This document shows positions 4,187 through 51,745 of a stretch of DNA of 64,000 nucleotides, piece by piece. The DNA comes from Cephalotus follicularis (taxonomy: Eukaryota; Streptophyta; Magnoliopsida; Oxalidales; Cephalotaceae): assembly GCA_001972305.1 (NCBI GenBank), contig BDDD01001972.1, positions 487,872-551,871 of the forward strand, read 5' to 3'. The first letter of the stretch is position 1. Each line of letters begins with the position of its first letter. A model generated the notes under the pieces. That model was not told the origin of the DNA and ran no database searches. It was given only the letters and a program-made list of their open reading frames with translations. The position numbers were made by a program, and so were the translations under genes.

Positions 4187-4884
4187 CCCCTCTCTCTTGG
4201 GAGGAAAATCTGTACGCTTTCTTGCTTTCCAGAACCCTAAAATCTCTACAAATCTTTTGCTCTCCTAATCTTCAGGCTTAACTTCTTCGTTTTCTTCTTT
4301 ACCCAGATTCTCAGGCGAATAGCTTTCTTCAATTTCTTCTTAATTTTTCGCTTAAGTAGTCTAAGGTTTTCAATGTCCACTGCATCCTCGTCTTCCTCTC
4401 TCTCTAATAGCGCCATGGCCAGAACTAAGCAAACTAGGAGAATTATTAGACGTCCCGAGGACATAGCTCGAGCATCAGTGCGGGTTACAATTGCTGGGCG
4501 TCCCCTTAATATTGAGGTGGAGATGGAGGCTGTGGCTGCCAGGACTTCCAACATCGCGGCGACAGAGGCTGGGGTCCAAGTCTTTAGGACCCACTTCGAC
4601 CAGACCAAGATGCGCCCGAAGAAGATGGCTGAGTTAGTTAAAGATTTTTCTATCCCCAGCAGTTTGAACTGTGAGATCCCAGCTGATCCCCGGACAGTCA
4701 CGGAGAGCATACCTGGCTATTTTGTTGTGTTCCAAGATGCCTTAGAGCATGGATTGAGGCTTCCTCTACCTCCCTTTGCCACAACTATCCTCGGGCACTA
4801 CCAAATTCACCCATCGATCCTCCAAGCGTAGTCCTTGGGATTCATCATTGGCTTCCTGGTGAGGTGCCTCGAGGCGGGGGTGAC

Positions 4885-6702
4885 TATTAGAGATGAAGTG
4901 CTGCGAGCCAGTATCGAGCTTGTATTTACTTTATCTTGTATAAATGATTTATAAATTATATAAAGATGTTTATGTTTTATCAATGACTATGAGTTCGTTT
5001 CATTAATACATGCTTTATTAATTGTAAATGAATGTCCTGGAATAAAGTTAGAAAACCAAGTTCATGATGAGATCATGATGTGAGAGTTGGAATCTCGGTG
5101 TACTTTATTTCGAATCTTCCTGGTCATAGGATTGACACTCAGGTTATGATCAATCCGGATAGACCAGCACATAATGTCGGATCGATAAGCAGAGGGTAGC
5201 TGATCTCACACTCACTCACATGGATGATGTTATGACAACTACGTGGATGCTCATTTAATGAGTTCACTGAAGGTGACTGTTGATAGAATATCTGTATGGA
5301 GTTTTACTTACATGTCAGACATAATTCTAGTTTTACAGCAGTGCATGTGGTCCTTGGACATGAGCCGTCACTGGATGTCTTGTGCATAGGGTGTTGTGTT
5401 TTGATGATGCTTAAATACATATTCTATGAAGTGTATACAGACATTAGTTGGACATAGTACGCTTATGTATGGAGGCATGTGAACTGGCAACAATAAATCC
5501 ATTGCTTCTAGTAAAAGAAGATTATGCTTAGGATGATTTTCGTTAGCGATTAAACGCTTGGCCAGGCTAGTCACGATATCAATAGTGTGATATCATTGGT
5601 TGAATATTAGAGGGGCACCTCTAATATTATTAAGGCTAATGAAAGATAGTTATGAGGCTAAAGATTAAATTATTGGGGTTTGACATAATCCGCACCCTAG
5701 ATTTAATTAGAGCATTGTCAATGGAGGGACTATATGTGCATGTACCTGTAAATAGTGGTTCGAAAATGATTCATATTACATGGGGGTTGTTATGCATTGC
5801 TAGATGTCGATGTCGATCAGTAGGATGCCCAAGATTAAATTGATAAATAATTTTAGAAGAAAAAGAATTAAAAGAGTTTTAATTCGATATATTCAAGAGA
5901 ATATTTTTTATGAGATAATAAATATTTAATTGGATAAATTATGAGCGTCACAATTTAATCCTACGGCCAGCGACTGAACTCATAGGGTCACACACAATAC
6001 AGGATAATATTTCTAACCATAATAAGAGAAAAATAATTAGGATAATTTTTCCTAATTATATTTAATGAGATTAATATATAAATATATTTAATGAGATTAA
6101 ATATATAAATATATTTAATGAGATTAATTATCCTTAATAATATTAAGGAAAATAGAAGTCAAAAAGGAGAGAAGACTATCTAAGGAAGAATCCTGAATGC
6201 ATTAGGAAACCCTAAGCATGATAGGATAAGAGTTTGTGTTCTAATATGATTGTCTAGCAGCAAGTATATATAGAACACACACCCCTTCCTATTAAGAGAG
6301 TTGTTGGACGTTTTTGTGCTCTCTCTTAGTGTCTTCTCTCCTCTCTCTCATATACAATCAAGAGTTGAAGGTTTAAGAAACATGGTGTTAGAAATTGAAG
6401 CTTGGTGTGGATACCTTGGAGGCTTTCTATACTTGGAAGCTAGAACCGTTTAATACGTTCAACAAGTAGCTGTGTTTTTGGAAGCATGAAGACTCATGGG
6501 AAGAAGGAAGGAGCCGCTCCATTCATGTGAGTAATTCCGCCTGCTCCTCCCTATTGATTTATATCTAACTATATATGTATGCTCAAAAGATCCTAGAAAA
6601 GAACCATATGACTTGATATTCATGAGATGATAACACAATATATGTTTTAGGGTTTTATGTATATAGATATTTTATTGCCTAAATCTCTATAAGGTTCCAA
6701 CA
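4885..6702 (+). repeat. 5' LTR of the copia element
   Basis: It starts TATTAGAGATG (the other copy has TGTTAGAGATG, so the TG end has mutated) and ends GGTTCCAACA. It matches 12301-14072 with scattered substitutions; near 6065-6120 it holds extra copies of an AT-rich block (ATTTAATGAGATTAA) absent from the 3' copy, which explains the length difference. Confidence 0.93.
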
Positions 6703-6705
6703 AAT

Positions 6706-6718
6706 TGGTATCAAAGCC
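6706..6718 (+). other. Primer binding site, initiator-Met tRNA type
   Basis: TTGGTATCAAAGCC starts three bases after the 5' LTR. It matches the usual plant copia primer site complementary to the 3' end of initiator methionine tRNA, with one change from TGGTATCAGAGC. Confidence 0.9.
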
Positions 6719-6839
6719 GGATTTGATGCATATATATAGTTAGAAACTTGTTTGTTGATGATATGCTTGAATTGTTTGGGTTTAATCCGTGAGACGGAAG
6801 CATGGGATGCAAATTTTGGGATTTGGAATTTTCTACAGT

Positions 6840-7118
6840 CGTGAAAGCGTCGACGCGTTCGTGAAAAGTGTCAACGCCTACGCGGGATACCACTGTCAGG
6901 AATCGCACGAAGACGCACAAAGCGTCGACGCTTAGGCGCTAAAGCGCAGACGCTTATGCGTTAAAACTGCATCTTCACTCGAGAAAGACGTCGACGCCTA
7001 CGGGTAAAACGATCGACGATTTTGAGAAAAGCGTCGACGCTCACGCACAAAGGAACGCAAGTGTCGACGCTTAACGCATGGACGTCGACGCTTTGTATAA
7101 AAGCGTCGACGGTTTGGC
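6840..7118. repeat. GCGTCGACGC palindrome array in the copia leader
   Basis: Seven exact GTCGAC cores lie in contexts approaching AAGCGTCGACGCTT, a 14-bp palindrome (near 6848, 6921, 6990, 7031, 7061, 7083 and 7104). Variants include GTCAACG, GCAGACG and GATCGACG. The spacers differ in length and sequence. The array lies between primer site and gag. Confidence 0.85.
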
Positions 7119-7710
7119 GTTAATTTACGGGAAAAAGAGTTTTTTCAATTATCCAATCAATTGTCTATATTTTAGAAATATATCTCTCAAGTTTATTTGT
7201 TGATTCAATGAGATTGAATATGCATGATGGTATGGCTATGGATTGACCTAGTTTGTCTTATTTTATTCAAGTGTTGAATGTATGTTTTTATTTTTCATTA
7301 TTTTCGGGTTGTAATTTTTAGACTTGCATGTCTCTCTTCTCTCTCTTAATTTGTATCTACAATTCTTCTTCACCTCCTTGTAACTCCCCTTGATTTATTT
7401 CAAGGTTTCTGTAGTTTATAGTTGGTTTGTGTAAAAGAAGAGTGAGCGTCGCAGAGGAAGCAAGTTGGAGGAGAACGAAGATATTACAAGACCCATGCAT
7501 GTATGGGAACGAATGTATGATTGTAATAACATACCTAGGAATGAGACCAGCAGCTTGTTTGAGAGTCAAACAAGTTGCAGTAGTAAAAGTCCATAACCTA
7601 CCATTAGTTTATAGTATGTATGTGATACATGTCTAAATTCTGTTCTTGAGGTTCCAACGGCCTCTCCATATTATGCCATGTACCTGTAATTTGATTAATA
7701 AAGGTTTGGC

Positions 7711-7730
7711 TAATAATAATAATAATAATG
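7711..7730 (+). repeat. TAA microsatellite in the copia leader
   Basis: About six TAA units in noncoding leader. Confidence 0.9.
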
Positions 7731-7823
7731 AGATTTATGTTATTATTCCTCAATTATACCATGATATCAAGTTAAAGCGAAACAGGCACAAGAGAGTGTT
7801 CAGTTGTTGCCTTCTGCCATTAC

Positions 7824-7905
7824 AACTTATATAGATGCTTTTGGAAATTGTAAGTGTTTTGGCCCCCGTCAAGGCTTGCTTTTTCTGGGGACATCTATAT
7901 GAGTT
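7824..7905 (+). other. Leader hairpin 1
   Basis: The left arm 7824-7855 pairs with the right arm 7874-7905: 14 pairs, a 1x1 mismatch (C7838/A7891), 9 pairs, a 2x2 TT/TT internal loop, then 6 pairs closing the common loop. That is 29 pairs, about eight of them G-U, by hand. Confidence 0.85.
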
Positions 7906-7932
7906 AACATGAGATGTATATACATATAAATT

Positions 7933-7974
7933 GTGAAAGTGAATGTTTTGGCCCCCGTCAAGATTCACATTCAT
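7933..7974 (+). other. Leader hairpin 2
   Basis: GTGAAT (7939-7944) pairs perfectly with ATTCAC (7963-7968) around the common loop. After one A/A mismatch five more pairs follow (7933-7937 with 7970-7974). Confidence 0.82.
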
Positions 7975-8010
7975 TGATTCATTGTGTGTTGGATGGTAGG
8001 TTAAACTTGA

Positions 8011-8060
8011 CTAGAATGCATATGGCGTTTTGGCCCCCATCAAGGTCATATGTACACTAG
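8011..8060 (+). other. Leader hairpin 3
   Basis: TGCATATGGC (8017-8026) pairs with GTCATATGTA (8045-8054), ten pairs with two G-U, around the common loop (ATCAAG variant). A 2x2 internal loop and a CTAG/CTAG helix follow outside. Confidence 0.85.
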
Positions 8061-8117
8061 AGGCAAAAGCGATGATCGGGAATCATGCTATTGTATGGTT
8101 GGCAAGAGTTTCCCTAA

Positions 8118-8175
8118 CTACAAGATTCAGTATAGCGTTTTGGCCCCCGTCAAGGTTATATTGAATATGTTGTAG
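8118..8175 (+). other. Leader hairpin 4
   Basis: ATTCAGTATAGC (8125-8136) pairs with GTTATATTGAAT (8155-8166), twelve pairs with two G-U, around the common loop. A 1x3 internal loop and a CTACAA/TTGTAG helix follow outside. Confidence 0.88.
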
Positions 8176-8386
8176 GACACCGATCCCCACTCGGAAACGA
8201 GATCCATGAGACTTGGATTATTGTTTCTCATCTCCCATAATATTTGAGGGTTATGGGATTCGCATAAAATAGTGGGAGCCTGAGAGGAAAATACCTAAAA
8301 GATTAAAGACCAAATATTTATGGTTATAAAAATTTAAATTGGATTTATCTGAATATTGTCTTTATTTTATATCTGCAGAAATCACA

Positions 8387-11300
8387 ATGACAAACCCACT
8401 CACTGTAATTCTTGAGAAAAACCAGTTGACAGGTCCAAATTATGTGGACTGGCTAAGGAATGTCAAAATAGTTTTGAATTCAGAGGACATAGATTATGTC
8501 CTAGAGGCCCCTATGCCAGTACTACCTGCTGAAGATGCCTCAACCGAAGATCATGTCATTTATAAGAAATGGGTGGCTAATGAAAAGGAAGTAAGAAGCT
8601 ACTTAATGGCATCGATGAGCAATGCCCTACAAGTCCAACATGGATCGATACAAGACTATAGGGAAATTCTCCTACATCTCCGCGAGCTATACGGAGAGAC
8701 TAGTAGGAATGCTCTGTTCCAGCTCACTGTTGAGCTGTATGGTACTAAAATGGATGAAGAATCTTTTGTTAATGATCATGTGCTTAAGATGATCAATGCG
8801 ATTGAATGTCTTACTGCTCTTGGCATCAGTCAGGATGCTAAATTAAGCACAGATCTGATCTTTCACTCCCTTCCACCTTCCTTCTCTGGTTTCATCACCA
8901 ATTTTAACATGAATAGGATATCAGCTACTCTGTCTGATCTTCTAAACATGCTGAGGGAAACCGAAGTGAACATGAATAAGGGCAAGGCGCCAGTCATGAT
9001 GGTAGGATCGTCCCGTACGCCAAAGAGGAAGGGCAAGTCAAACCTTGAGAAGGGAAAGACTGAAAGTGGGATAATACCACCACGACCGGCATCTTTCAAA
9101 CCAGCCAAAGCCAGACCATATAATCAGACAAACCAGCAAGTTGTTGCTGCGTCGGACACTGCTGCAAGAGTTGCAACTGCTGAGGAGTCTACCTCAGAAT
9201 CTCCTGCTAAGGGATTGTGCTTCCACTGTGGGAAGCCAGGACATTGGAAAAGGAATTGTGTGATATTCCTTGGATCAATTGGCAAAGGTATGCCCTATTT
9301 GTCTTATATAGAGGTGAATATGAATATTTCTGAATCTTCCTGGATTTCAGACAGCGGATATGGTACTCACATATGTTCTATTTAAAGGCCCTCACGGATC
9401 GAAGAAACCTTGAGAAGGGTGAGGGAGATCTACGGCTTGCGGATGGTTCAATAGTTGAAGCCATAACCATAGGATCAGTTTATATTTTGTTACCTTCGGG
9501 CCAGAGTTTAGAACTCAAACATTGTGTTTATTCGCCTCACATTTTGTAAAATATTATTTCTATTCCAGCATTAGATGCTGAAGGTTTTCATATTATTTTT
9601 AAAGACAAGTGTTGTTCTATTTTATTTAATAATATGATTTATGCAAAATGTTTCCTTCATGATGGATTATATATATTGAGTAAACATGAGACTGTTTTCA
9701 ATATGCAAAAAGACAATAAAAGAAAGAGAGATGAAGTTAATCAATCCTACCTATGACATTACTCGTATAAGTGAGAAAAGAGTTCGCAGGTTGATCTCGG
9801 ATGGATACTTTGATTTCTCAATGTATCAACCGTATCCAACTTGTGAACCATGTCTTAAAGGTAAAATGATCAAATCTCCCTTCACAGGGAAAGGGGAAAG
9901 GACCTCAAATCTGCTAGGTCTAGTACATACTGATGTATGTGGACCAATGACAGTTGATGCCCAAAGTGGATATTTCTACTTCATAACCTTTATGAATGAT
10001 CATTCCCATTTTGGTTATTTGTACCGTATGCGGCACAAATCTGAAGCCTTTGAAAAGTTCAAAGAATTCAGACATGAAGTAGAGGAACAGACTAGTAAAA
10101 GTTTGAAAACTCTTCGATCAGATCGAGGTGGTGAGTATCTCTCCACCGAGTTTTTAACTTATCTCAAAGATAATGGGATTATCTCTCAATGGACGCCTCC
10201 AGGAACACCACAGCATAATGGTGTGTCTGAATGGAGGAATCGCACTTTGCTTGATATGGTGTGTAGCATGATGAGTGATGCTGGACTTCCACTGTCTTTC
10301 TAGGGTTATGCTTTAGAGACTACTGTTCTCTTATTGAACAGGACTCCAACGAAATCTGCTCCCAAGACTCCATATGAGATATGGAACGAGAAGAAACCCA
10401 ATCTTAGTTACCTAAGAATATAGGGATGTCCTGCATATGTTAAGCAGGCAGCAGCAAATAAATTGAAATCAAGGTCCATTAAATGTAAACTTGTGGGATA
10501 TCCTAAAGAAACACGAGGATATTACTTCTATTACCCATCTAACAACAAAGTATTTGTAGCCAGGCATGCTACTTTTCTTCAGAAGGACTTCCTATTGGAA
10601 GATAGTAGTGAGAGCATGATCGAGCTAGATGAATGATCTAAAGAACCACAAGTTGAGGACCTGTCTAATCTTGTTCAAATTGATGTTCCTGAAATGCCGG
10701 CTACCACAGATACACAACCTCTGCGTAGAACTACCTGATTACCCAGGGAACCTGAGAGATACTATGGTAGTTTTCTCATTGAACGTACCCAAGAGTTAAA
10801 TCTCGTGAGTGATGATCCGGTAAGCTACAAAGAAGCCATATGCGATATGGACTCGGAGAAATGGCTCAAAGCCTTGAATTCTGAAATAGAATCCATGTAC
10901 TCCAACAAAGTTTGGGATCTAGTGGACGCACCCCAAAGGGTTAAATCCTTAGGTTGTAAATGGATTTTCAAAAGGAAGCTTGGAGACGATGGAAAGGTGA
11001 AGACCTTCAAAGCTAGGCTGGTAGCCAAAGGTTACAATCAATGAGAAGGGATTGATTATGAGGAAACTTTCTCTCCTGTAGCCATGCTTAAATCTATTCG
11101 GATTTTACTTGCTATAGCTGCACATTTTGACTCTGAGATATGGAAAATGGATGTGAAAACTGCTTTTCTCAATGGAAACATTGATGAAAACATTTATATG
11201 ACTCAACCTGAGGGTTTCATATCCACTGGTGATGACTAGAAAGTGTACAAGCTTTAGAAGTCCATTTATGGACTAAAGCAAGCTTCGAGAAGTTGGAACA

Positions 11301-12285
11301 TTCGATTCGATACAATCAAAGAGTTTGATTTCATTAAGAATCGAGATGAACCATGTGTGTATAAAAAGTTTAGTGGGAGCTTAGTGACTTTTCTGGTCTT
11401 GTACGTTGATGACATACTCCTTATAGGAAATGATGTGATCATGTTGTCAAACGTAGAGGCTTGGTTATTTGTAGTTTTCTCCATGAAAGACATGGGAGAA
11501 GCTTCCTATATCCGGGGAAGAAAGGTCTATAGAGATAGATCAAAAAGGATGATAGGGTTATCCCAGTCTTTGTACATTGACAGAGTGTTTAAGCGATTTA
11601 GCATGAAAAATTCCAATAGAGGTTACCTACCTCTATGTCATGGAATTTCACTTTCTAAACAGATGTCTCCCAATACAGCTGAAGAAAGACAAAGGATGAT
11701 GCACATTCCATATGCTTCAGCAAATGGAAACGTCATGTATGCTATGCTTTGTACTAGACCAGATATCGCCTATGTTGTAAATGTTACAAGCAGATATCAG
11801 TTAGATCCAGGTGAGAGTCACTGGAAGGCTGTCAAAGATATCCTCAAATACCTTAACAGGACTAAGGATTTATTCTTGATGAATGGAGGAAAAGGTTTGA
11901 AGATTGAGGGTTTTACTGACTCTAATTTTCAGATAGATGTGGATGATTCGAAATCGACATCGGGGTTTGTGTTCACCTTAAATGGTGGAGCAGTAAGCTG
12001 GAAGAGTTCCAAGCAGCCTACCACTGTGGATTCAGTGACTGAAGCTGAATACATTGCGGCATCAGAAGCTGCCAATCCAAGGAGCCTAGATCGCACTCAA
12101 AGTTTAAGCACATTCTCAGGCGCTTTCACCTTATACGTGAGATCGTTGATCGTGGAGATATAAAAGTGGAACGAGTTCCAAGTGAAGACAATATTGCAGA
12201 CCCGCTTACTAAGGCACTATAAAAGGCGGTCTTTGACAGACACCTTCATGCTACGGGTGTGAGACACTATGGCAACTGGCTTTAG
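8387..12285 (+). pseudogene. Ty1/copia gag-pol polyprotein, degenerate
   Basis: I start it at the ATG of MTNPLTVILEKN because that is the usual Gag start of this family; an upstream in-frame ATG at 8339 reads only leader. In order: Gag of about 300 residues, zinc knuckle CFHCGKPGHWKRNC (9218-9259), protease site WISDSG, integrase (LVHTDVCGP, SDRGGEY, HNGVSEW), reverse transcriptase with YVDD (11402-11413), and RNase H (FTDSNFQ ... TEAEYIAASEAA). Stops interrupt it near 9383, 9548, 10301, 10421, 10636, 10737, 11042, 11236 and 11257, with frameshifts near 9700 and 12080. Several stops read as TGG-to-TAG, CGA-to-TGA or CAG-to-TAG changes. The frame ends at TAG 12283-12285, just before the polypurine tract. 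It cannot make an active polyprotein. Confidence 0.95.
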
Positions 12286-12300
12286 CGCTTAGTGGGAGAT
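12286..12300 (+). other. Polypurine tract of the copia element
   Basis: AGTGGGAGAT lies directly before the TGTTAGAG start of the 3' LTR. Confidence 0.75.
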
Positions 12301-14072
12301 TGTTAGAGATGAAGTGCTACGGAGCCAGTGTCGAGCTTGTATTTACTTTATCTTGTATAAACGATTTATAAATTCAATAAAGCTGTTTATGTTTTATCAA
12401 TGGCTATGAGTTCGTTTCATTAATACATGCTTAATTAATTGTAAATGAATGTCCTGGAATAAAGTTAGAAAACCAAGTTCATGATGAGATCATGATGTGA
12501 GAGTTGTAATCTCGGTGTACTTTATTTTGAATCTTCCTGGTCATAGGATTGACACTCAGGGCATGATCAATCTGGATAGACCAGCACGTACTATCGGATC
12601 GGTAAGCAGAGGGTGACTGATCTCACACTCACTCGCATGGATGATGCTATGACAACTACGTGGGTGGTCATTTAATGAGTTCACTGAAGGTGACTGTTGA
12701 TAGAATATATGTATGGAGTTTTACTTACATGTCAGACATAATTCTAGTTTTACAGCAGTGCATGTAGTCCTTGGACATGAGTCGTCACTGGATGTCTTGT
12801 GCATAGAGTGTTGCATTTTGATGATGCTTAAATACATATTATATGTAGTGTATACAGGCATTAGTTGGACATAGTACGCTTATGTGTGGAGGCATATGAA
12901 CTGGAAACAATGAATCTATTGCTTCTAGTAAAAGAAGATTATGCTCAGGATGATTTTCGTTAGCGATAAACGGTTGGCCAGGCTAGCCACGATATCAAGA
13001 GTATGATATCATTGGTTGAATATTAGAGGGGCACCTCTAATATTATTAAGGCTAATGAAAGATAGTCACGAGGCTAAAGATTAAATTATTGGGGTCTAAC
13101 ATAATTCATACCCTAGATTTAATTATAGCATTGTCAATGGATGGACTATATGTGCATGTACCTGTAAATAGTAGTTCGCAAATGATTCATGTTACCTGGG
13201 GGTTGTTATGCATTGCGAGATATCGATGTCGACCAGTAGAATGCCCGAGATTAAATTGATAAATTAATTTTGGAAGAAAAAGAATTAAAGAAGTTTTAAT
13301 TCGATATATTCAAGAGAATATTTTTTATGAGATAATAAATATTTAATTGGATAAATTATGAGCGTCATAATTTAATCCTACGGCCAACGTAATAGTGAAC
13401 TCATAGGGTCTCACACAATACAGGCTGATATTTCTAACACGTAATGAGAGAGAAATAATTAGGATAATTTTTCCTAATTATATTTAATGAGATTAATTAT
13501 CCTTAATGAGACTAAGGAAAGTAGAAGTCAAAGATGAGAGAAAGACTATCTAAGGAAGAATCTTGAATGCATTAGGAAACCCTAAGCATGATAGGATAAG
13601 AGTTTGTGTTCTAATATGATTATTTAGCAGCAAGTATATATAGAACACACCCATGTTCCTATTAAGAGAGTTTTTGGACGTTTTTGTGCTCTCTCTTAGT
13701 GTCTTCTCTCCTCTCTCTCATATACAATCAAGAGTTGAAGGTTTGAGAAACCTGGTGTTAGAAATTGAAGCTTGGTGTGGATACCTTGGAGGCTTTCTAT
13801 ACTTGGAAGCTAGAACCGTTTAATATGTTCAACAAGTAGCTGTGCTTTTGGAAGCAAGAAGACTTGTAGGAAGAAGGAAGGAGTCGCTTCATTCATGTGT
13901 GTAATTCCGTCTGCTTCTCCCTATTGATTTATATCTAACTATATATGTATGCCCAAAAGATCCTAGAAACGAACCATATGGCTTGATATTCATGAGATGA
14001 TAACACAATATATGTTTTAGGGTTTTATGCATATAGATATTTTATTGCCTAAATCACCATAAGGTTCCAACA
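12301..14072 (+). repeat. 3' LTR of the copia element
   Basis: It begins TGTTAGAGATG and ends GGTTCCAACA, followed by the second GTGAC duplication. It keeps the TG start that the 5' copy has lost. Confidence 0.95.
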
Positions 14073-15088
14073 GTGACAGCCACCGTAGGGCTGTTTAAGG
14101 AGTTCCACACCTTGAATGCCTCCCCTAAAAAGCACGGCTTCTACTTCAAATCTCGCGTGGGTCGCAACAAGCTGCTGGCGAAGAACACCAAGATAGTCAA
14201 AAGCTCTAGGGAGAAGTACTTCTTGGTCAAGAATCTCCCTGGCTTCACACCCTGCCCGTGGAACGACACTCTGGAAACCGTGCGCCTTAACCAGAGGACG
14301 TTTTTTACCATGGAAAAAAAGGCCGACCTGGGGAGACTTTTGTCACACCCCGTCTTTCAACATCACATAAAAGTGATAAAACAATCAACATATAAATCCG
14401 GCTTATGTAATTTACCATAAATTTAAAACTTTTCATATCCATTAACATCTCGCGGAAGCATCAAATATAAGCTGAACACATCACGCATCCCATACTACGT
14501 GATGTTTATAAATATCCCAAACATGACTGTTGATCGCCCGAAACGGAGCGTGAAATAAAATACAATACATCAGTACGAGATAATAATGTAAACCACGTTA
14601 CAAAATAATCCCAAATACATATCATGATAAATGTTCAAAACTCAAATATAAAAAGAGAATATCCAAGCTTTCTCCTGAAGTCTCCTTGCATGCTCCATAA
14701 CATTATCACTCCATCAATCTGTTACAGTAGGGGTTAGCCTTTTTCCTCACTCGGCAAAGTGAATAAACTCATAAATACAGTTTAGGTCATAAGGTAATGA
14801 GTGCCATGAATGAATACATAATGATGCAGTATGACATGAAATTTCCAAGTAGATATACTTTCCTTATATAAAAAAAAAATATATGTATGCTCACGGTACA
14901 AGTATAACTCATAAGTTATATCAACACAAGCAAGAAATATGTTCCCAAAAGGAACCAGACAAGCCAAACGCCATGACCGTCGCCACCTCCTGGCCCCAAC
15001 GTCATGCACTCTTACCCCCTCCCCGGGAGCAAGTCCAAGAAGTTGTTTAGCGCGGCGGCTAAACCAACAGCAAGTTACTAGCACAAAG

Positions 15089-17711: not shown

Positions 17712-18757
17712 AACTAGAATAGCTTTCTTTTTTCTTTTTCCTTGCCTTGTACTTTTTTCTTACTTTTGCGATGTAATTTTCTTTTGATGAATGAAATACA
17801 AAGCTTTTTTCACCTCGGATCTCCTTTATGTGCTTTATTTGTGTTGTATGCCATGCTTAAGCTTTACTCGGGCACTTGCAGTTCCCTTAGGAATTTTAGT
17901 CTAACTTATAGACTTTATATGGTGGCCTTACAATTTTCAGGCCTAATTACCTAAGCTTCGTAATCCCCTTAGGACACTTTGTTTCAAAAGCGCTTAGGCA
18001 AAAGGACTTAGTCTTTACTAGTTATGCTGTGTTCGTAGACCAAGTTTCAGGTCTGCTCGGGCAAGTTCTTACGGGTTTGCCGAGCAGGGTCTCGTCTGGT
18101 CCGTTATATTCTAGACTAGGTCGCTTGAGCTTGCAGTCCACGTAGGGTCACATATTTCAAGGTGCTCAGTCCAACGAACTTGATCGTTGCGAGTTCTCAT
18201 GGATTCGCCTCTCAAGACACGATGTGGTTGTGGTCGGGCATTGAAATGCTGACCGGTGTTTTCTCCCTTAGGAGTCTAGTTGCTTCCTTAGAAGTCTTTT
18301 GTATGTGGTCTTAGGTGCTCCCCTGGAGGAGTCTTTGGTGCTCCCCTGGATGAGTCTTTAGTGCTCCCCATGAGGGAGGCTTTAGTACTCCCCTAGAGGG
18401 AGGCTTTTATGCTTCTCTGGCGGGAGGCTTTAGTGCTCCCCTGGAGGGAGGCTTTTGTGCTCCTCTGACGGGAGGCTTTTGTGCTCCTCTGGCGTGAGGC
18501 TTTAGGTGCTCCTTGGAAGGAGCCTTAGTTGAATTGAGACCTTGGTCTGTTTGAAATACTCCCTTGGGAGCATGGTCGGGCATGCCTATATTAAAGCTTC
18601 ATGGTTGAGGGACTTGATCGGCGACTGTTCAGAGGTTTAAGGACATGAACATTGGGCCTCTGGTCCCTTGCAAACTTGGAACTATGATCTTTACACATAT
18701 TTTTTGAGAAAAATTCAATATTATTGACATTCTTGAATTTGTACAACTTACAAAGGA
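17712..18757. repeat. Spacer of element A between antisense ORF and pol, with about 24-bp hairpin repeats
   Basis: At 18314-18530 about nine units of near 24 bp repeat (GTGCTCCCCTGGAGGGAGG type), each able to form a short CTCC/GGAG hairpin. The 3' ends of pol (minus) and of the antisense ORF (plus) face each other across this spacer. Element B has a matching array at 61598-61755. The rest of the spacer holds nothing I can assign. Confidence 0.8.
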
Positions 18758-21700
18758 TCACTGGTAATACTTCCTCAGATGCTCGGTATTCCAAGATTTG
18801 GGAATCTCCCTGCCCCCCAGAGTTTCAAGTTTGAATGTTCTTGGGCGGAGCACTCTCTTCACCTTGTATGGCCATTCCCAATTAGGGGCTAGCTTTCCTC
18901 TGGTACCGGTTGGATCTGCTATAGCTGAGTTGCGTAGGACTAGGTCTCGTTCCCTTAGTGGTCGGGGGTGTACCCTTTTGTTATAGTAATGGCCCACCCT
19001 CTGTTGGTATGCTGCAACTTTGATAGCTATCTTGCCTCTGAGCTCTTCTACTAAGTCGAGGTGGGTCCTCAACCCTTCTTCATTATTTTCTTCGCTGAAA
19101 TGTACAACTCTTGATGACTGTACACCAATCTCCACCGGTATCATAGCTTCAGCTCCAAAACAAAGGCTACATGGGGACTCGCCATTTGTGGTCCGAGGAG
19201 TGGTTCTATAAGCCCATAATACAGTTGGAAGCTCCTCTGTCCATCTTCCCTTGCTATGCTCAAGGCGCTTTTTCAAGCCCGAAATGATTTCTCTGTTGAT
19301 CACTTTGGCTTGACCATTACTCTGGGGGTAGGCTACTGAGGCTAGTCTATGCTCTATTCTCCATTCTTTGCAAAAATCACGGAAAGCCTAGCAATCGAAC
19401 CGCTTTCCATTATCTGAGACTATTACCCTCGGGACTCCAAACCTGCAGATGATTGATTTCCATACAAAGCTTTCCGTGTTCTTCTCCATGATCGTGGCCA
19501 GAGGTTCTGCTTCTACCCATTTGGTGAAGTAGTCCACTGCCATAATGAGAAACTTCCTCTGCCCTGTTGCCACTGGTAATGGTCCAACGAAATCCGTCCC
19601 CCACTGTGCAAAGGGCCATGGGGCCGTGATGGATGTCAGGGGTTCTGAGGGTCTCCTGCTTATATTGGCATACCTCTGACACCTATCACATTTCCTCACA
19701 AAGTCTATGGCATCCTGGTGCATGGTCGGCCAAAAATAGCCCTGCCTCAATAATTTGTGGGACAAGGTTCTGCCCCCCGTGTGATTGCCACAGACTCCTT
19801 CATGGACTTCTCTTAGAGCATAATCGGACACTAGGGGAGTCATACACCTCAGCCAAGGATAAAAGAATGACCTTTTGTAGAGGATCCCATCTCAGAGTTG
19901 GTATCTGTTTGCTCTGTACACCAGTTTTCTCGCTTCAACGGGGTCCTTGGGAAAAATCCCGTTCCTCAGCCAATTGATAAATGAAGTCATCCAGTTTGGC
20001 TCTTACGGTGCATCTATGTCCATCACGCTACCTCCGAGATGGTGGGCTTATCCAGATAGTCCATCAACACTGTTTTATTTTCCCGCAACTCCTCCGTTGT
20101 TCCCAACTTGGACAACTGGTCTGCTTGGGCATTTTCTGCTCTGGGCACTTTCAAGATTCTAATCGTTTGGAAGGCTGACTTCAAATTTTGAAAGTATGTT
20201 AAGTACTTATCCATGGAGTCTTCTCTGGCTTCATAGTCGCCACTCCCTAGACCAACTACTAGCTGAGAATCACTGGAGGCTTCTATTTTTTGAACCTCCA
20301 AGTGCTTTGCGATTGTCAGCCCAGCGATCAAAGCTTCCCCTCGGCCTCATTGTTCGTGGCCTTGAATCCGAATCTCAGAGCATACTCTATGATCCAACCA
20401 TCTGGACTTGTTAACACCAATCCTGCTCCACTGCCGGAGACACAGGATAAGCCATCCACGGACAACTTCCATAACCCCTTCTCTTCTTCAGGGGTGTCTT
20501 CTTCCATACACTCCGTAAGTGTATGATATCCTACAAAATCTACCAAGACCTGTGATTTTATTGCTGGTCTAGCTTCAAACTTTACGTCATACTCGCCTAA
20601 TTCGACCGACCACTTGATCAGTCTTCCCGAGAGGTCTGGCTTTGCTAGAACTTGTCTTGGTGGTTGGTTGGACAGGACCTTGATGGTATGAGCTTGGAAG
20701 TATGGCCTCAACTTCCTTGCTGCTATGATCAGAGCATAAGCAAATTTTTCTACCTCCGGATATCTCCCATCAGCATTGTTCAAAGCTTTGCTAACATAAT
20801 ATACTGGCCTTTGAACTTTCTCCTCTTCTCTGACCATCACTGCACTCACCGCGCCTGTTGTTGCCGCAAGTTACAAATATAGGTCCTCCCCGTCCTCAAG
20901 TTTTGATATCAGAGGATGAGAAGCCAAGTATTCCTTCAACTTGTCGAAGGCCGCTTGACATTCTTCAGACCAAGAAAATCCCTTAGGATCTCTCAATACT
21001 TTGAAAAAAGGGAGACACTTATCTGCTGACTTTGAGACAAACCTGCTCAGGGCTGCTATTCTTCCATTCAAATTCTGTATATCCCTAATGGTCTGAGGAG
21101 GCCTCATGCTCTGAACTGCTAAAATTTTCTCCAAGTCGGCCTCTATTCCTCTGCTTGAGACCGTGAACCTGAGGAAGTTACCAGAGGTGACCCCAAAAGT
21201 ACACTTGGAAGAATTGAGCTTCATTTTATATCTCCTTAACACTCCAAAAGTTTCCTCCAAGTCTTTAATGTGGGGGCTCCTTATTGGTGTCTTGACAAGC
21301 ATGTCGTCAATATAAACCCCCATGTTTTTCCCGATCTGAGGCTCAAAGATCTTGTTAACCAACCGTTGATAGGTTGCCCCGGCATTCTTTAATCTAAAGG
21401 GCATGACTTTGTAACAGTACATGCCTCTATCAGTGATGAAGGCTGTCTTGTTCTCGTCGGGCCCATACATGGGGATTTGATTATACCCCGAGTAGGCATC
21501 CAAGAAGCTTAGCATCCTATACCCTGAGGTTGCATCCACCAACTGATAAATCTTCGGGAGGGGGAAGTAATCCTTTGGACAAGCCTTGTTGAGGTCTATG
21601 AAGTCAATACACATCCTCCACTTGCCATTTGCTTTCTTGACTAAGACCGGGTTGGCCAGCCAGTCAGAATAGTGTACTTCCCTGATGAACCCCGCTTGTA

Positions 21701-22640
21701 ATAGCTTGCTCACCTCTTCAGTTATTACTTGCTACCTCTCAGGAGTGAAGTTCCTTTTCTTCTGCCTGGTCAGATGCCTCATAGGATCCACACTTAGCTT
21801 GTGCACCATCACTTTTGGGCTGATCCCAGGGACCTCCTCTGCCGACAAAGCAAAAACATCTTTGTTATTTCTAAGGAACGTTATTAGTTCCCCCTTCTCC
21901 ACCTCTCCAAGTTGTGAGCCGACTTGGATAATTCTTTCTTCGTTGCCCTCCTCCAATGGCACTTGTAAAACTTCTTCAACAGGCTGTGGACGCCCAGGCT
22001 CCACATCCCCTCTGAGCTCCACATTTGCTATAGACAAGGCCTTCTCTTTCCCCTTGTCCATCACAGCAGTTTTGTAGCACTGCCTTGCTACCTGTTGTTC
22101 TCCTCTGACTTTCCCCACATCAAACCTCATTGGGAATTTCATCACTAAGTGTCTCATAGACACTATGGCCTCCAACAAGTTCAAACCGGGATGCTCGATT
22201 ATGGCATTGTGCAGGCTTGGTGTGTCCACTACCAGGAAAGTCATCTGCACTTGGGTCTGACGTGGGGTCGTGCTTGCAACCACGGACAGGTCGATGGATC
22301 CCAAATGATGGACCATCTCCCCTGCAAAGCCGACCAGTGGGGTTTTCACGGGCTTGAGTTGGTCGGTCGGTATCTTTAGCTGATCAAATGCATGTTTATA
22401 CAAGATATCGGCTGAGCTCCCACTACCAATCAGGATCCTCTTCATAGTGAATAGTTCCACCAGAAGAGTTACCACCACTGGATCATCATGAGGGAGACGT
22501 ACTCCCTCATAGTCCACCTCAGAGAAGGATATCGCCTCCTCATCTCCACCATTCTTCAACATCTTTCTATGCTGAATCTGTTGCACTGCAATGGATTGCC
22601 TTCCATAAGCCTTTCTAGACCTATTATGGTCGCCCCCAGA
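18758..22640 (-). pseudogene. Tat element A pol: protease, reverse transcriptase, two RNase H domains, integrase
   Basis: On the minus strand: protease region RILIGSGSSADIL, where the Asp expected before S/TG is Gly (element B keeps DSG); reverse transcriptase (KWRMCIDFIDLNKACPKD, FLDAYSGYNQI, VYIDDMLVK); RNase H; a second, plant-type RNase H (LWKLSVDG ... KATNNEAE); integrase with a zinc finger (HEGVCGNH ... CDRCQ), Asp residues in WGTDF and VSDNGKRF, and SNGQAKVINREI, where the catalytic Glu of element B (GQVEV) is Lys. The C-terminus ends WNTEHLRKYYQ. Stops occur at 20868-20870 (Tyr position in element B) and 19388-19390 (Gln in element B), with frameshifts near 20330 and 19310. Two lost catalytic residues plus the stops make it dead. 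Confidence 0.94.
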
Positions 22641-22689
22641 CGTGACCCCTCCAGAGATGGTGTGGATGACACCTCTGGGCTGCTACTGT

Positions 22690-24377
22690 TGCTCCTCTGG
22701 CTATTGTGGAGCTTCTTCTCTGCGCTCCCTCATTTGCTGAGGAGCATTCCTATCTACATACTTGCGTAGGTGCCCCTTACGAATCAGGTCCTCTATCTGA
22801 TTTTTTAGTTGCCTACACTCCTCGGTATCGTGCCCGTGGTCACAATGGTACCGGCAATACTTTTCTATATCCTTCTTCTCAGCTGAGGACCTCATTGGTG
22901 CAGGCCATTGGATAGGGACCTTATCTTTCTCCACCGCAAGTATCTTGGTACGAGACTCCAGGAGAGGGGCAAAATTGTTATAGGCCGGGATTGGCGCTCC
23001 TCCCCTGGATGAATCCTCTCTCTTGGAGAGTTTGTGTCTGAGGTCATCTTTGTGTAGCTTGGACCTCTCATTCCTCTTCTCTTTCTTCCCAGGAGCATTT
23101 CGTGAATGCTCCCATTTCTCCACCTGATGGCCCGACCAGGATGTTTTTTGTTTCCTGGCTGCCATCCCCTCCTCGGCATTGATATACCTCTCTGCTCTTC
23201 TCAGCAGGTCCGCCATATCCACCGCGAGCTTCTTCAGCAGAGAGAAAGTAAAGGAGGAGTTGTCCTTCAGCCGACTATTCAGTGTTGCCAGAGTGAAGGA
23301 TGGCTCCATGTCTCTCACTATGAGAGACTTCTTATTGAACATGGTGAGGTAGTCTCTCAGTGATTCATCTCTCCCCCGCACCACGCTGATCAAATGGGTT
23401 GAGTTTCTCCTCTGCGTTATGCTGTTGAGGAACTTTGTCACAAACAGTTCCGCAAACTGATCGAAATTCTCCACCATCCCTCTGCCAAGGTAGAATACCA
23501 TGACTGGGCTACTCCAATCAGTGTTGCCAAGAATCCTCAGAAAAGTGTGGCGTCCGAGGCTTGGTGCACTAACATGGTTTGGATCTAGGCACGCACATGC
23601 TGGATGGGATTCATGGACCCATCATACTGCTGGAGACTCAGGAACCAGAATCAACTATGGATATGCTCCTTCATGATCTTGGATATGAAGGGGTTGGCGC
23701 TATTGTTGCACACCTAGGCCAGATATCCCCTTGGCTGCTCGGCTCCTCAGAACCTCTTCTTCATCTTAGCAAGCCTTATGTTCATTGCTTGCTCAACATC
23801 TTCAATGTTCCTAGCCCTGCTAGAAACCCGTGAGTCCTCTACCAGTGTGGCCGTGTGGTCCAACCTACTCCCCCACATTATTCTAGTCCTGTGCGAGGCA
23901 TTGAAGCGCACACGTATTTACTCAGCATCTCCTTGGAGATCCACATCCATTGCTTGGTGCTCGGGATGCTCTGGTCTGGGATATTGTTGTGATCTCGGGC
24001 AGTTGAGGACTCTGCCCTCTGAGATGCATTAATCTCAGCTCTCCTCCTCAGGCGTGTATCAACCCCTGACCGCCTTGGGGGAGCATGCCCCTTGGCGGGT
24101 TTTGCCTTTGCCCACGGGGGCGTTGGTTCTCCTGGACCTGCTTTGCGATCTAGATTGTTCTCGGACCACTGGTTGAGCAGGTCCGGCCTGATTTTGGTTT
24201 GCTAAACTGGTAGCCAACAAGTTGGTGAGGCGCTCCACTCCCTGAAACAGCTAAGTGAATTGCTCCCCAGTGATTGGAGCTTGCTCGGGAGCCGCGACTT
24301 GACCGGCATCAGTAGGTGGGATTTCCTATACTCGGCTGCCCATGGCTTCAGAGATGTTGTTTCTTCTTGGCATGATT
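22690..24377 (-). pseudogene. Tat element A gag, degenerate
   Basis: The frame opens MPRRNNISEAMG shortly after the primer site, then runs through many stops to a readable section (23501-22701): FDQFAELFVTKFLN, RRNSTHLISVVRGRDESLRDYLT, AERYINAEEGMAARKQK and a zinc-binding motif CRYHCDHGHDTEEC. The same blocks occur in element B gag. The N-terminal 280 codons are heavily damaged. Gag would form the particle and bind RNA; this copy cannot. Confidence 0.85.
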
Positions 24378-27009: not shown

Positions 27010-28575
27010 CATGACAAAAGAATGTTTTAAAATTTATACTGCAAGTGCACGGTTGTGCAGTAACGGGTCGAACGCTGGGAAATAAGTTAAACTAGTTATA
27101 ATCTATCCAACCTAGGCGAAGTATACGAAATCAAGGTTTAATTATGAAAACTACTCCTAATTATGAAAAATAAATTAAATAATCAAAACTGGGAATGAAG
27201 GCGTCGACGCTTTGTCAAGGCGTCGACGTGTACAACTACTGAATTGAGTTAAACAGAAAATTAACAAAGCAAATATTGAACTAATCAAAGCAATAAATAA
27301 AACTGAATTAACGATGCAGGACAAAAGCGGTTTTAGGGAATAGAAACTCACCATAGATTGTATTGAATAACTCACTTACTTGATTTATCAAACCTTGATA
27401 ACCAATGGCAGCTAGGTCGATACGGAGTGCGACTGTGATGACAAGACGTATGAGTAGTCATGCTAGGTTTATACAAAGTACGGCAGCGGCGGCAAGACGT
27501 ATGAGTAGACATGTTAGGTCTATACGAAGTGTGTTCGTTGTGACAAACAGTATGAGTAGACTCCATTGATCGCATTAAGAACCATTCATTCACCAACATT
27601 CGCATTCACCGACAAGATGTTTGTGGATTTTAATTAAACAGACAAAGTGTGCGTGAAGGTAGAAAATTGAAGAACGAATCAAAACTTCAAGGAATTTATT
27701 GATAGAGTTAAAACAATAACAATCTAGGCTTGTTCTTCCCTAAAAACCTTAAAGAGTTGGCTACTAAACATTGTAATAAAAACTAAAATTGATGAAGAAA
27801 AAGCGGCTACAAAGCTTGTCACTAACTTTGTTCACACGTTTTGGTGACCTAGCTTCCTCTATTTATACATAAAATCTCGTGCAACAAGAAAAGGAAAAAG
27901 TTTAACCTACTTAAAACTGTTTAAGGAAATAATTACAAGCTAAAAACTTTCCAAATTTGCTGTCAGGCGTCGTAAGCATCGACGCTTAAGTCTTGGGCGT
28001 CGATGCTTTGGTATTGCGTTGACACTTAAATGTACTGAAGGCGCTAAGCGTCAACGTTAATCTTGCATAATGGGGCATAAATAAGTTGTTAAGCGTCAAC
28101 GCTTAAGTAAGGCGTCGACGCTTAAGTTGTGTAGCAGGATGGCGTTGACGTCTTCCTCTTTGCGCGTTAACGTGTAAAGCTACTGTCCGAATTATGCGCT
28201 TTTGGCGTTGACGTCTAAATGATGTCGTTGACGTCTTAATGTTGAATTCCCAGCACGTTGACGCCAAAGTGATTGGCGTTGACGAAAATCATAAAATCTG
28301 CAGAATTTGTTCATCCAAGTGCAAAGCTTCGACGCTTTCTTTGAATCCGTCAGCGCTTAAAGGTTAGGCGTCGATGCTTAAGGTCTAAGCGTCGACGCTT
28401 AACTTTGTTTTCAGTAGAATTTTGCCAATTTAACTCATTCTTCATGCACTTTGGTCTTTTTGGCATTGAACCTGAAAATTAACATAACACAACCAAAGTA
28501 GTTTATTCCAAACATAAAAATGTAACAAATAACTTATTAAAAATAAAAATAAAATTATGCTAAATAGTGTGCAAC
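27010..28575. repeat. Noncoding repeat unit with GTCGACG array
   Basis: It begins near TTTATACTGCAAGTGCACGG, wording I have seen at the edge of dispersed plant repeats, and ends in an A-rich stretch near 28560. No coding sequence. The class of the element is unknown to me and I could not find a target-site duplication. Confidence 0.4.
27199..28400. repeat. GCGTCGACGC palindrome array with many decayed copies
   Basis: Four exact GTCGAC cores (two near 27205-27230, one near 28115, one near 28390) and about a dozen single-step variants: GTTGACG, GTCAACG, GTCGATG, GTTAACG, TTCGACG. The best copy is AAGCGTCGACGCTT near 28388. Most variants are one transition away from the palindrome. Confidence 0.8.
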
Positions 28576-42909: not shown

Positions 42910-43357
42910 ACATCCGTCTACATTCCAGGGGTTTATTTCCTCAGATATGAAAAGATAGGATATGGTGAACAACCTACAAGGAAAGTACCAACAAATCCGG
43001 AGAAGATCAAGGGAAATGACCGAGATCCTCGGCATTTCCTTAGGGGATAACAATCACCTCCGTTTTTCACGCTCAAACAGTTACCAACCAACTCTATAAA
43101 TACCAGTTTCACAAACTGTACAAAGGTCGACCATTTTTAACATTCTAAAGAACCTAGTTTTCTCTGTGCATCTACTAACTTGAGCGTCGGAGTGTCCCCG
43201 GGAGAACAACCTCCTAGACCTTCTACCCTTGTTTGTTCTACTTGTGCAGTGATTCTCAACCATCAAACACCTTTCTCGTACATATTCAAGCGTTTCTCTA
43301 AACAAATCAAAGCCCTCCACGTAGGGTGCTGTTGAGGGAAAGATTTTTACCTCAATA
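42910..43357 (+). repeat. 5' LTR of Tat element B (start uncertain)
   Basis: The end is fixed by the primer site after CTCAATA (a decayed CTCAACA). Blocks shared with the LTR of A (GATCAAGGGAAAT, ATCCTCGGCATTTCCTTAGGGGATA in two parts ATCCTCGGCATTTCC and TTAGGGGATA, then TATAAATAC) show it reaches at least to about 42990. A start at TGACATCCG near 42910 would give a length close to that of A. Confidence 0.65.
43095..43102 (+). promoter_or_regulatory. TATA box in the LTR of element B
   Basis: CTCTATAAATACC lies at the same place relative to shared LTR blocks as the TATA box of element A. Confidence 0.65.
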
Positions 43358-43359
43358 AT

Positions 43360-43374
43360 TGGCGCCGTCTGTGG
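43360..43374 (+). other. Primer binding site of element B
   Basis: TTGGCGCCGTCTGTGG, identical to that of element A, starts one base after the LTR. Confidence 0.78.
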
Positions 43375-43402
43375 GAAACGCAGTAAAAAGCCATCAAGAA
43401 TC

Positions 43403-45140
43403 GTGCCTCCGAGAAAAAACATCAACAATTCTAGAGCCACCAACAGCCGACAACAAGAGATCCCACCTCCTCTTCCTGAGGCCGGCCAAGTTGTGGCCCA
43501 AGAACAAGCTCTCGTCACTGGGGAGCAGCTCAATCAGCTCCTCCAATGAATAGAGCGTCTCACAAATTTGTTGACAACCAACATTGCCAACCAGGCCCAG
43601 GCCAGACCTGTCCAAGAAAATAGCATAGGACAAAGCGGCATTGATAGGCCAGCGAGGTGCTAGGCGAAACCCGCCTAGGGGAGAGAGACTTCATTCAAGG
43701 CGGTCATGGGATAATATTCCCTTGGGGAGGAGGCCTGAGATCAATGCATCTCAGAGGGCAGAGTCCTCAACTACCTGAGATCAGCCCAACGATCCCAAGA
43801 GAGAGCACCCAAAGCACCAAGCCAAGGATGTGGATCCTCAAGGGGGAGCCAGGGGCGCAGAAGATGCACAAGTGCGGTCTAATGCCCCGCGCAGAGCAGC
43901 GACTGTCCAGGGAAGCAGGGCAGATCTCGCGGCTACACTGGCCATGGGGTCACGTGTTTCTAGCAGGGCTAAAAACATTGAAGACGTGGAGCAAGCAATG
44001 AACAGAAGGTTTACCGAGGTGGAGAGAAGACTCCAGGGGGGCGGGAAACCAAGGGGATATCTGTCAGAGGTGCGCAACCTTAATGCCCACCCCTTTACAC
44101 CCGAGATCATGACGGAGCGTATCCCCAGCGGATTCCGGCTCCCTAGCCTTGATAAATACGATGGGACCACGGATCCCATCCAACATGTGCGCACCTACAT
44201 TCAGACCATGTTGGTGCACCAGGCCTTAAACGCCACACTATGTCAAGGATTCCCGGCCACGTTGATTGGAGCTGCCCACTCGTGGTTTTCTACCCTGGCT
44301 CAGAGGTCAGTGAAGGATTTCGACCAGCTTACGGAGCTGTTTGTCACCAAATTTCTCAACAGCACTACGCAGAGGAGGAACTCTACCCACCTGATCAATG
44401 TGGTGCAGGGGAGAGATGAGTCACTAAGGGACTACCTCACCAAGTTCAATAGGGAGTCTCTCACGGTGAAAGATCTAGAGCCGTCCTTCGCCCTAGCAGC
44501 ATTAAACAGTGGCCTGAGGAACAACTCGTCCTTCACTTTCTCCCTTTTGAAGAAACACGCGATGGACATGGAAGACCTGCTGAGGAAAGCAGAAAGGTAT
44601 GTCAATACCGAGGAAGAGATGGCATCCAGGAAACAAAAAACACCCTGGTCAGGCCATCAGGAGGAGAAAGGGGAGCATTCACGAAATGCCCCCGGGAAGA
44701 AGGAGAAGAGGAAAGAGAGGTCCGACCTGCCAAAGGACGACCTCAGACACAAGCACTCCAGGAGGGGTGACTCACCCAGGAGAGGGGCGCCTGTCCCATC
44801 CTACAACAACTTTGCCCCCCTCCTGGACACTCGCACCAGAATACTTGCTATGGAGCAGGACAAGGTCCCTATCCAGTGGCCCGAGAAGATGAGGTCCCCA
44901 GCAGAGAAGAGGGACACAGAAAAATATTACCGGTATCATCGTGACCACGGACATGATACCGAGGAGTACAGACAGTTAAAGAATCAGATTGAAGATCTGA
45001 TTCACAAGGGGCATTTGCGCAAATATGTGGACAGAGATGCTCCCGGGGGGTCGCTTCTGGTGGCGACCACAAGAATGCTAGAAAAGCCTACGGAAGACAA
45101 TCTCTTGCTATGTAACAAGTTCGTCACAGCAAAAGGCTGA
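43403..45140 (+). pseudogene. Tat element B gag
   Basis: The expected start codon is GTG at 43403 (the aligned codon of element A is ATG). After stops and a frameshift, a frame of 436 codons is open from 43830 to 45140: RRFTEVERRLQGGG, GFRLPSLDKYDGTTDPIQHV, AHSWFSTL, FVTKFLN, GRDESLRDYLTKFN, AERYVNTEEEMASRKQK. It is better preserved than in element A. The zinc-binding motif reads YRYHRDHGHDTEEY; both Cys of element A (CRYHCDHGHDTEEC) are Tyr here, which would abolish metal binding. Confidence 0.9.
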
Positions 45141-45154
45141 GAACAGGTAGAGAT

Positions 45155-46393
45155 GGGGAGGTAATATCCTTCTCGGAGGTGGACTATGAGGGAGTACGTC
45201 TTCCTCATGATGATCCAGTGGTGGTAACTCTTCAAGTGGCACTTTTCACTATGAAGAGGATTCTTGTTGATAGCGGGAGCTCGGCCGATATCCTGTACAA
45301 GCACGCATTTGATCAGCTGAGGATACCGACCGACCAGTTGAAGCCTGTGAAGACCCCACTGGTTGGCTTCGCATGAGAGATGGTCCCTCCTCTGGGACCC
45401 ATCGAACTGTCCGTGGTTGCAGGCACGGCTCCACGTCAGACCCAAGTAGAGATGACATTCCTGGTAGTGGACACACCAAGCCCATGCAATGCCATAATTG
45501 GGTGACCATGACTGAACTTAATAGAGGCTATAGTGTTCACATGACACTTATTGATGAAATTCCCTACAAGGTTTGGCGTGGGGGAAGCCAGAGGAGATCA
45601 ACAGGTGGCAAGGCAATGCTACAAGATTGCCATACTAGAGAAAGGGAAGGACAAGGTACTTCCTATTACAAATGTGGAGCTCAGAGGAGACGTGGAACCT
45701 GAGCGTCCACAGCCTGTTGAAGATGTTATCCAAGTGCCCCTAGCAGAGGGCGACACTGAAAGAGTCTTCCAAGTTGGCTCACAACTTCCAACTTGGAGAG
45801 GTGGAGAAGGGGGAATTAATAACATTCCTCCAAAACAACAAAGATGTGTTTGCCTGGTTGGCAGAGGAGGTCCCTAGGATCAGCCCGAACGTAATGGTTC
45901 ACAAGCTAAGTGTGGATCCAATGAGGCCTCCGACCAGGTAGAATAAGAGGAACTTTGCATCTTAGAGGCAGCAAGCAATAGCCGAGGAGGTGAGCAAGCT
46001 CCTGCAGGCAGGCTTCATAAGGGAAGTGTATTATTCAGACTGGCTGGCGAACCCAGTCCTAGTCAAAAAAGCAAATGCCAAGTGGAGGATGTGTATCGAC
46101 TTCACAGACTTCAACAAAGCTTGTCCCAAGGATCACTTCCCTCTCCCAAGGATAGATCAATTGGTAGATGCGACCTCGGGCTACAGAATGTTAAGTTTCT
46201 TGGATGCCTACTCGGGATACAATCAAATCCCCATGTACGGGCCCGACGAGAATAAGACAGCTTTCATCATGGACCGGGGGATGTATTGTTACAAGGTCAT
46301 GCCCTTTGGACTCAACAATGCATGGGCTACCTACCAACGACTGGTGAACAAAATCTTTGAGCCACAGATTGGGAGAAACATGGAGGTCTATAT
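45155..46393 (+). pseudogene. Tat element B pol, first part (protease and N-terminal reverse transcriptase)
   Basis: Protease region RILVDSGSSADILYKHAFDQ keeps DSG. A linker with stops (TGA at 45373-45375) and a frameshift near 45790 follow, then EEVSKLLQAGFIREVYYSDW, KWRMCIDFTDFNKACPKD, FLDAYSGYNQIPMYGPDENK and NKIFEPQIGRNMEVYI. Element C begins right after, in the codons for the catalytic YIDD motif, so the Asp pair is missing. The sequence resumes at 58842 about 30 codons further on. Confidence 0.92.
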
Positions 46394-46624
46394 TGTCACA
46401 CCCCGAACCGTGGGATTGACCCCATGACTCGACACGTGACAAACCGTACAATCATCATCATTATTAATCATAAAAATTTAAAACTTAATTAAATCATAAA
46501 CATAATCCTTAATTTAACGTGTGGCTATACAGACCCAGTTCATTACATAAAAATACACTGTTTCAAACCAATAGATAAAATAAATAAATACATATTTATT
46601 TCCTACAATTTCGTCCATAAAAGC

Positions 46625-51717: not shown

Positions 51718-51729
51718 AGGGCTCTTACA

Positions 51730-51745
51730 CCCTCCCCTCCTTACA
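51730..51745 (-). other. Polypurine tract of element C
   Basis: On the minus strand GTAAGGAGGGGAGGG lies directly before the TGTAAGAGCC start of the LTR. Confidence 0.85.

Follow-up and report, generated by a model that had tools for sequence, protein, structure and literature searches.

Between its primer-binding site and Gag, the leader of a Ty1/copia retrotransposon of Cephalotus follicularis carries an array of four hairpins that is a conserved, structured sense RNA, as in the retroviral Psi region. Related elements carry hairpins with other apical tips, and the tip changes together in several hairpins of one element. On balance, the array is probably a multivalent signal by which the RNA of each family is recognized, and the likeliest candidate to bind it, for packaging, is the Gag of the element itself, a reading built on sequence comparison and predicted folds. 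How plant LTR retrotransposons select their own genomic RNA among many co-resident families is poorly known, and tips that are short, readable and specific to a family, and that change in concert, open the link between tip and cognate Gag to direct testing.

The window, by which we mean the whole 64-kb stretch of a C. follicularis contig and to whose positions all coordinates refer, contains the carrier as a Ty1/copia insertion with both ends present, recognized by its target-site duplication, two LTRs and copia-type Gag:

4880–4884, unstranded: target-site duplication GTGAC, left copy (right copy 14073–14077)
4885–6702, + strand: 5′ LTR, a repeat block with ends read from the sequence (3′ LTR, 12301–14072)
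6706–6718, + strand: primer-binding site TGGTATCAAAGCC, located by sequence and presumably of the initiator-Met tRNA type
8370–8378, + strand: T-rich YAG, similar to a 3′ splice site, immediately 5′ of Gag, seen by eye within the stretch 8370–8386
8387–9385, + strand: Gag ORF of copia type with PF14223 and a CCHC zinc knuckle, from the ORF and a domain search

The leader is about 1.68 kb long, and the array lies where the earlier note had put it, between the primer site at 6706–6718 and the Gag start at 8387. The domain search places integrase (rve, 9686–10300) before reverse transcriptase (RVT_2, 11357–12160), the copia-type order; both frames are broken. The nine best matches of the window Gag are all from C. 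follicularis. The other LTR elements scanned in the window are of gypsy type and were left out of the analysis; they lie at 18555–23474 and 43284–61492 in opposite orientations, the right-hand one being split by a further gypsy element, whose LTR blocks start at 49240 and 56863.

The array and a fifth hairpin downstream of it comprise the following:

7812–8001, + strand: region around H1 and H2, closed by a predicted long-range helix pairing 7812–7822 with 7990–8001
7824–7905, + strand: hairpin H1, cap 7856–7873, 35 pairs in the local fold
7918–7989, + strand: hairpin H2, cap 7945–7962, local fold
8011–8060, + strand: hairpin H3, cap 8027–8044 with a G-to-A change, local fold
8118–8175, + strand: hairpin H4, cap 8137–8154, local fold
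8298–8319, + strand: hairpin H5, loop AAAGACCA at 8305–8312, one mismatch in the window copy

The motif GTTTTGGCCCCC[G/A]TCAAG starts on the + strand at 7856, 7945, 8027 (the copy with the G-to-A) and 8137, and at up to three mismatches the 18-mer has these four matches in 64 kb against 0.02 expected. The uninterrupted stems that adjoin it measure 6, 6, 10 and 12 pairs in H1 to H4 with G-U allowed, and stems of these lengths or more occur around randomly chosen 18-nt segments of the window at frequencies of 0.0040, 0.0040, 0.0002 and 0.00006, which bears out the initial observation that four copies each sit in a stem of their own. The hairpins are not all unrelated to one another, since H3 and H4 share 81% identity across 42 nt, a stretch that takes in the cap, and H1, put at 29 pairs in the earlier note, has 35 in the local fold, cap included. 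The "18-nt loop" of that note is a conserved stretch, as described, but not an open loop: in H1, H2 and H4 the 18 nt are themselves predicted to fold into a 2-nt bulge, a cap stem UUGGC/GUCAA and a CCCC tip, whereas the cap predicted for H3 with its G-to-A is unlike these. Over the array, 411 nt fold at -134 kcal/mol, a value reached by none of 100 shuffles (mean -104.2, sd 5.25); in 120-nt windows scored against mononucleotide shuffles, only H1 stands out (z -3.85), with the H2 to H4 windows at z +0.7 to -1.9.

The 1.58-Gb host assembly contains 3070 exact copies of the motif (1519 + 1551), against 0 + 3 for the reversed pattern. From the window's own family (F1) we sampled 54 distinct copies, the window plus 53 from the first of the matches listed. 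Among these listed matches, all four motifs were present within four mismatches in 48 of the 54 copies, and Gag started 229–259 nt 3′ of H4 in 51 of the 54; the Gag start of L063 has 25 mismatches in 60 relative to that of the window. Motif spacing is about 90/82/110, the largest departures being 86 (L055) and 76 (L070). In all 48 F1 arrays the predicted fold is more stable for the sense than for the antisense strand (means -119.9 versus -82.2 kcal/mol), as it is in 15 of 15 arrays of a second family, F2, and in 7 of 7 others tried.

Selection on pairing was assessed by asking whether a transition in a Watson-Crick stem pair yields G-U, which keeps the pair, or A-C, which breaks it, neutrality predicting an even chance; the F1 test used the 48 four-motif copies and took stem columns from the window's own fold. 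Variants found in at least five copies kept pairing in 13 cases and broke it in 1 (P 0.0018), and those in at least three copies in 19 versus 4, counts that exclude columns with a G-U majority and become 20:1 and 27:4 when these are included. Singletons divided 12 to 10 (the 33:18 for variants in at least one copy minus the 21:8 for those in at least two). Because shared variants keep pairing and singletons do not, inherited variation has been filtered for pairing of the sense RNA, while decay after insertion was unfiltered. Together with the strand asymmetry, this upholds the original suggestion of selection on RNA. The same test on F2 gave 1:0 for shared and 6:4 for single variants, with too few shared variants to be informative. 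Covariation of the stems, also claimed at the outset, is thin inside F1, where double changes are few and most columns do no better than re-dealt partners; it is strong between families, in the cap stem. Mean pi in F1 is 0.072–0.107 in the caps, below most of the values for arms and flanks (0.079–0.295), a conservation that, like the count of copies with all four motifs, is biased upward because an exact match to the motif was what retrieved the copies.

Arrays with other tips occur in elements related by Gag, for which ten sequences were compared in an identity matrix. F2 comprises 30 loci found via Gag P0014, which is 51% identical to the window Gag; two of them, L090 and L098, look like one sequence on two contigs. 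In 25 of the 30 loci the best hairpin pair has the cap TTGTTGAGCACACTCAAG, or one near it, with a CACA tip, and no common-cap hairpin pair was found in the remaining 5. A four-position spacing rule is passed by 15 of the 30, typically at 92/81/115, and in these H2 has a different cap stem, of GGG/CCC type, around the same CACA tip.

More distant relatives, L012 and L013, are copia elements of other plants, present as contaminants in bacterial assemblies deposited under the names Geminicoccus harenae and Streptomyces fumigatiscleroticus. L012, whose Gag is 38% identical, has a leader alignable with that of the window, including sequences like those of the predicted long-range helix. At the H3 and H4 positions it carries a different shared loop, identical at 16 of 19 positions at a spacing of 108, which 0 of 500 shuffles reproduced; the third-best + strand match to this loop motif in 5,141 bases (15/20) falls at the H2 position, and H1 looks degenerate by eye. 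L013, with 30% Gag identity, has CAAA hairpins spaced 86/84/130, and such quads arose in 4 of 1000 shuffles. Its count of same-loop hairpins by itself was unremarkable, being reached by 73 of 1000 shuffles, this leader did not pass the long-loop test, and its sense strand is only slightly above antisense (-89 versus -83), so that L013 is no more than suggestive as an array-bearing relative. Tandem units around TTAAAACCCGAGTTGGA also occur at 600–720 in its leader, some with A/U stems alongside.

A further 24 leaders were fetched from 166 genome matches to the L012 Gag query. With tips read between constant cap stems, by patterns written after the loci had been seen, with no control and with a few loose cross-matches left uncounted as chance or neighboring frames, an identical tip recurs in three or more hairpins in 16 of the 24:

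UCA tip: L113, L116, L118
CCUA tip: L115, L120 (six CCUA hairpins), L129, L130; also L134, on the cap stems of the UCA family
UAAA tip: L111, L126, L127, L128
UAUA tip: L137, whose H2 reads UAAA
CAAA tip: L119
CACA tip: L136
CCCC tip: L121

The other 8 have fewer than three equal tips: two in L110, L114, L117, L133 and L135 (5 of the 24), one in L131 and L132, and none in L112. Across families the tips are mostly 3–4 nt, lack G and sit on a short cap stem; an element usually has four such hairpins, at spacings that hardly vary. In seven leaders (two F2, three UCA, two CCUA), none of 300 dinucleotide shuffles each reached the best same-cap hairpin pair; under the strict rule of this test, no pair was found in L110, L111, L112, L114 or L119. 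A generic search for quartets of equal tetraloops spaced as expected recovered L013, L126, L127 and L128 and missed F2 (0 of 30), and the F1 rows that it found had CCCC in only 3 cases and other cap words in the rest. It gave 4 positives among 110 reversed controls, of which three came from F6 leaders, and 0 among 163 other window segments.

The tips change in concert. The L129 and L128 leaders are identical at 481 of 668 aligned positions (72%), and at H2, H3 and H4 the former reads CCT, CCT and CTT where the latter reads TAA three times, the caps being otherwise the same except for one extra difference in H4, at the base beside the tip. In the families of these two elements the H2 cap stem, ACACG/CGUGU, differs from that of the sister hairpins, yet it carries the sisters' tip. 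Similarly, L134 reads CCUA or UCUA where the 73%-identical L116 reads UCA. Among 18 cap types, hand-picked and hand-typed with bulged F4 caps, L012, L013, L132, L133, L137 and decayed copies excluded, 89 of 90 cap-stem cells are paired and 23 have changed on both sides, and neither figure was reached by any of 5000 re-dealt sets of arms. Cap stems thus covary between families while the tip stays common within an element. The earlier note had regarded a loop not conserved in related elements as contrary to its reading, and between families the loop indeed differs; but it changes jointly in several hairpins of one element, which speaks for a binding partner.

Not every hairpin of the leader behaves in this way. 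The loop AAAGACCA of H5 recurs in 18 of the 24 other leaders, in L012 and in 40 of the 54 F1 copies (among the matches listed), and is absent from L013. Its stems vary, for example AAAGATT/AATCTTT and GTAGACT/AGTCTAT, and in 6 of the 9 compared, one or two of the seven pairs are mismatched. The H5 loop is therefore common to most families, unlike the four family-private tips.

We propose that the four hairpins expose one apical tip on freely varying outer stems, and that the tips may be where a partner docks that likewise differs from family to family. Because several families are co-resident in one host, such a partner is most likely encoded by the element, and a partner that differs by family, together with joint change in separated hairpins, is explained most simply in the same way. 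By elimination, the obvious choice of candidate is then Gag, with its basic, RNA-binding zinc-knuckle region. An array of tips would recruit more than one Gag molecule and so initiate the packaging of cognate genomic RNA, which would keep the RNAs of co-resident families apart. Of the initial suggestion of a multi-copy Gag-binding or dimerization element, multi-site Gag binding thus appears as the likeliest role, while dimerization through GGCC is not supported. A more specific model, which we offer tentatively as somewhat under an even prospect, is a packaging code in which at least four hairpins with a family tip of 3–4 nt would be read by the element's own Gag, the tips being swapped in concert as Gag specificity shifts so that cross-packaging is avoided, and the common-loop AAAGACCA hairpin serving a shared step. 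The tips could in this way help to sort elements by mutual recognition.

The main alternative, that the ligand of the array is an RNA-binding protein of the host, acting in the nuclear export of unspliced transcripts or in translation control, is unlikely, though it has several observations in its favor. The paired sites of the constitutive transport element serve nuclear export of unspliced RNA. In the plant elements a long structured leader precedes Gag, and the H5 loop is common to most families, as a host ligand would require. A YAG resembling a 3′ splice site was seen by eye before the Gag ATG in the window, L012, L013 and 17 of the 24 other leaders, so that unspliced RNA may need marking; it suggests a leader intron that would contain the hairpin array, comparable to the leader splicing of BARE1. 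Against a host ligand, a single host protein would hardly account for six or more tips within the same genome and for their concerted swaps.

Pairing of the tips with another RNA site, in the element or in a host RNA, that changes along with them would likewise yield concerted change, but we judge it improbable. Read as its reverse complement, TTGACGGGGGCC, the cap core equals a widely conserved 12-mer of 16S rRNA; the match to the caps at 7856–8154 is probably a coincidence, and it is missing in other families. Within the whole element there is no 7-base complement of the window cap, where about 6.7 would be expected, and three F2 loci have 0, 5 and 1 scattered 7-mer complements. Loop-loop contact through GGCC, by which the earlier note had the tips dimerize the genome, is still less probable. 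The window cap does contain GGCC, but in the predicted fold most of it, the GG included, falls in the cap stem, and three of ten caps or tips tested have it (the window cap, H2 of F2 and one L013 hairpin). No palindrome is common to the ten, in contrast to the conserved self-complementary loop of a kissing-loop dimer initiation site: CACA, UAAA and CAAA are not self-complementary, and ACATGT in H4 of L012 and TGGCCA in H2 of L013 are absent from their sister hairpins. Finally, that the array is a by-product without RNA function, inverted repeats duplicated, spread with the element and homogenized by template switching, would suit the very high copy number, the H3/H4 similarity that extends past the cap and the extra units of L120, but is very improbable given the pair-preserving bias in shared and not single variants, the sense/antisense asymmetry, and the fact that H2 in F2, F4 and F6 has a different cap stem with the same tip, for which the homogenized tract would need to be 3–4 nt.

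Among known systems, the closest in working to a Gag-docking array are the GACG hairpins of murine leukemia virus and related gammaretroviruses, likewise several pre-Gag hairpins with a common short tip that act in packaging; according to the portion of the source cited, alpha- and gammaretroviruses use such GACG tetraloops, and one tip is shared across viruses, where it may aid heterodimers, whereas each plant family has its own (PMC516450). The plant array, with usually four hairpins and up to six, has no sequence relation to that system, and GACG is not among the plant tips CCCC, CACA, UCA, CCUA, UAAA, CAAA and UAUA. The arrays fit the idea of specificity against cross-packaging, as outlined in part of another source (PMC5086612). 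BARE, also a plant copia element, keeps separate RNA pools for translation and packaging and makes Gag from spliced RNA; its packaging and dimerization signals, compared here by description only, include no hairpin array in the cited part (PMC3735527). The Ty1 and Ty3 leaders likewise have Gag and dimerization functions in an LTR element; the signals described in the cited parts are palindromes, plus a pseudoknot in Ty1, with no repeated common-tip hairpins (PMC8396678, PMC11381356), and those of Ty3 for packaging in cis are called not precisely defined (PMC11381356). The Conserved Hairpin Site of the fungal copia elements GalEa is, in the cited part, likewise a conserved hairpin 3′ of the 5′ LTR, but a single one, at the LTR junction of elements without a primer site, and with a stem more conserved than its loop, the reverse of the plant pattern (PMC5445492). 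Among open-access papers, judged by titles or abstracts, we found no description of such a hairpin array.

Outside plant elements, plasmids yielded no relative by DNA or protein searches, and viral contigs none by Gag or reverse-transcriptase searches; a 17-mer search of the viral contigs gave 11 single matches with stems of 0–2 pairs, which we read as chance. The whole assembly containing L013 showed just the known Gag match. The Rfam 15 covariance models, run against 4800–14200 at E<=1, gave no match to the array and only two sub-threshold MIR6136 matches, at 7012–7110. The strongest local fold in the leader (z -7 for 7005–7124) belongs to a separate, palindromic motif array around GCGTCGACGC at 6844–7123, which is also found at 15541 and 27201–28398, the 10-mer itself recurring at 27201, 28112 and 28389.
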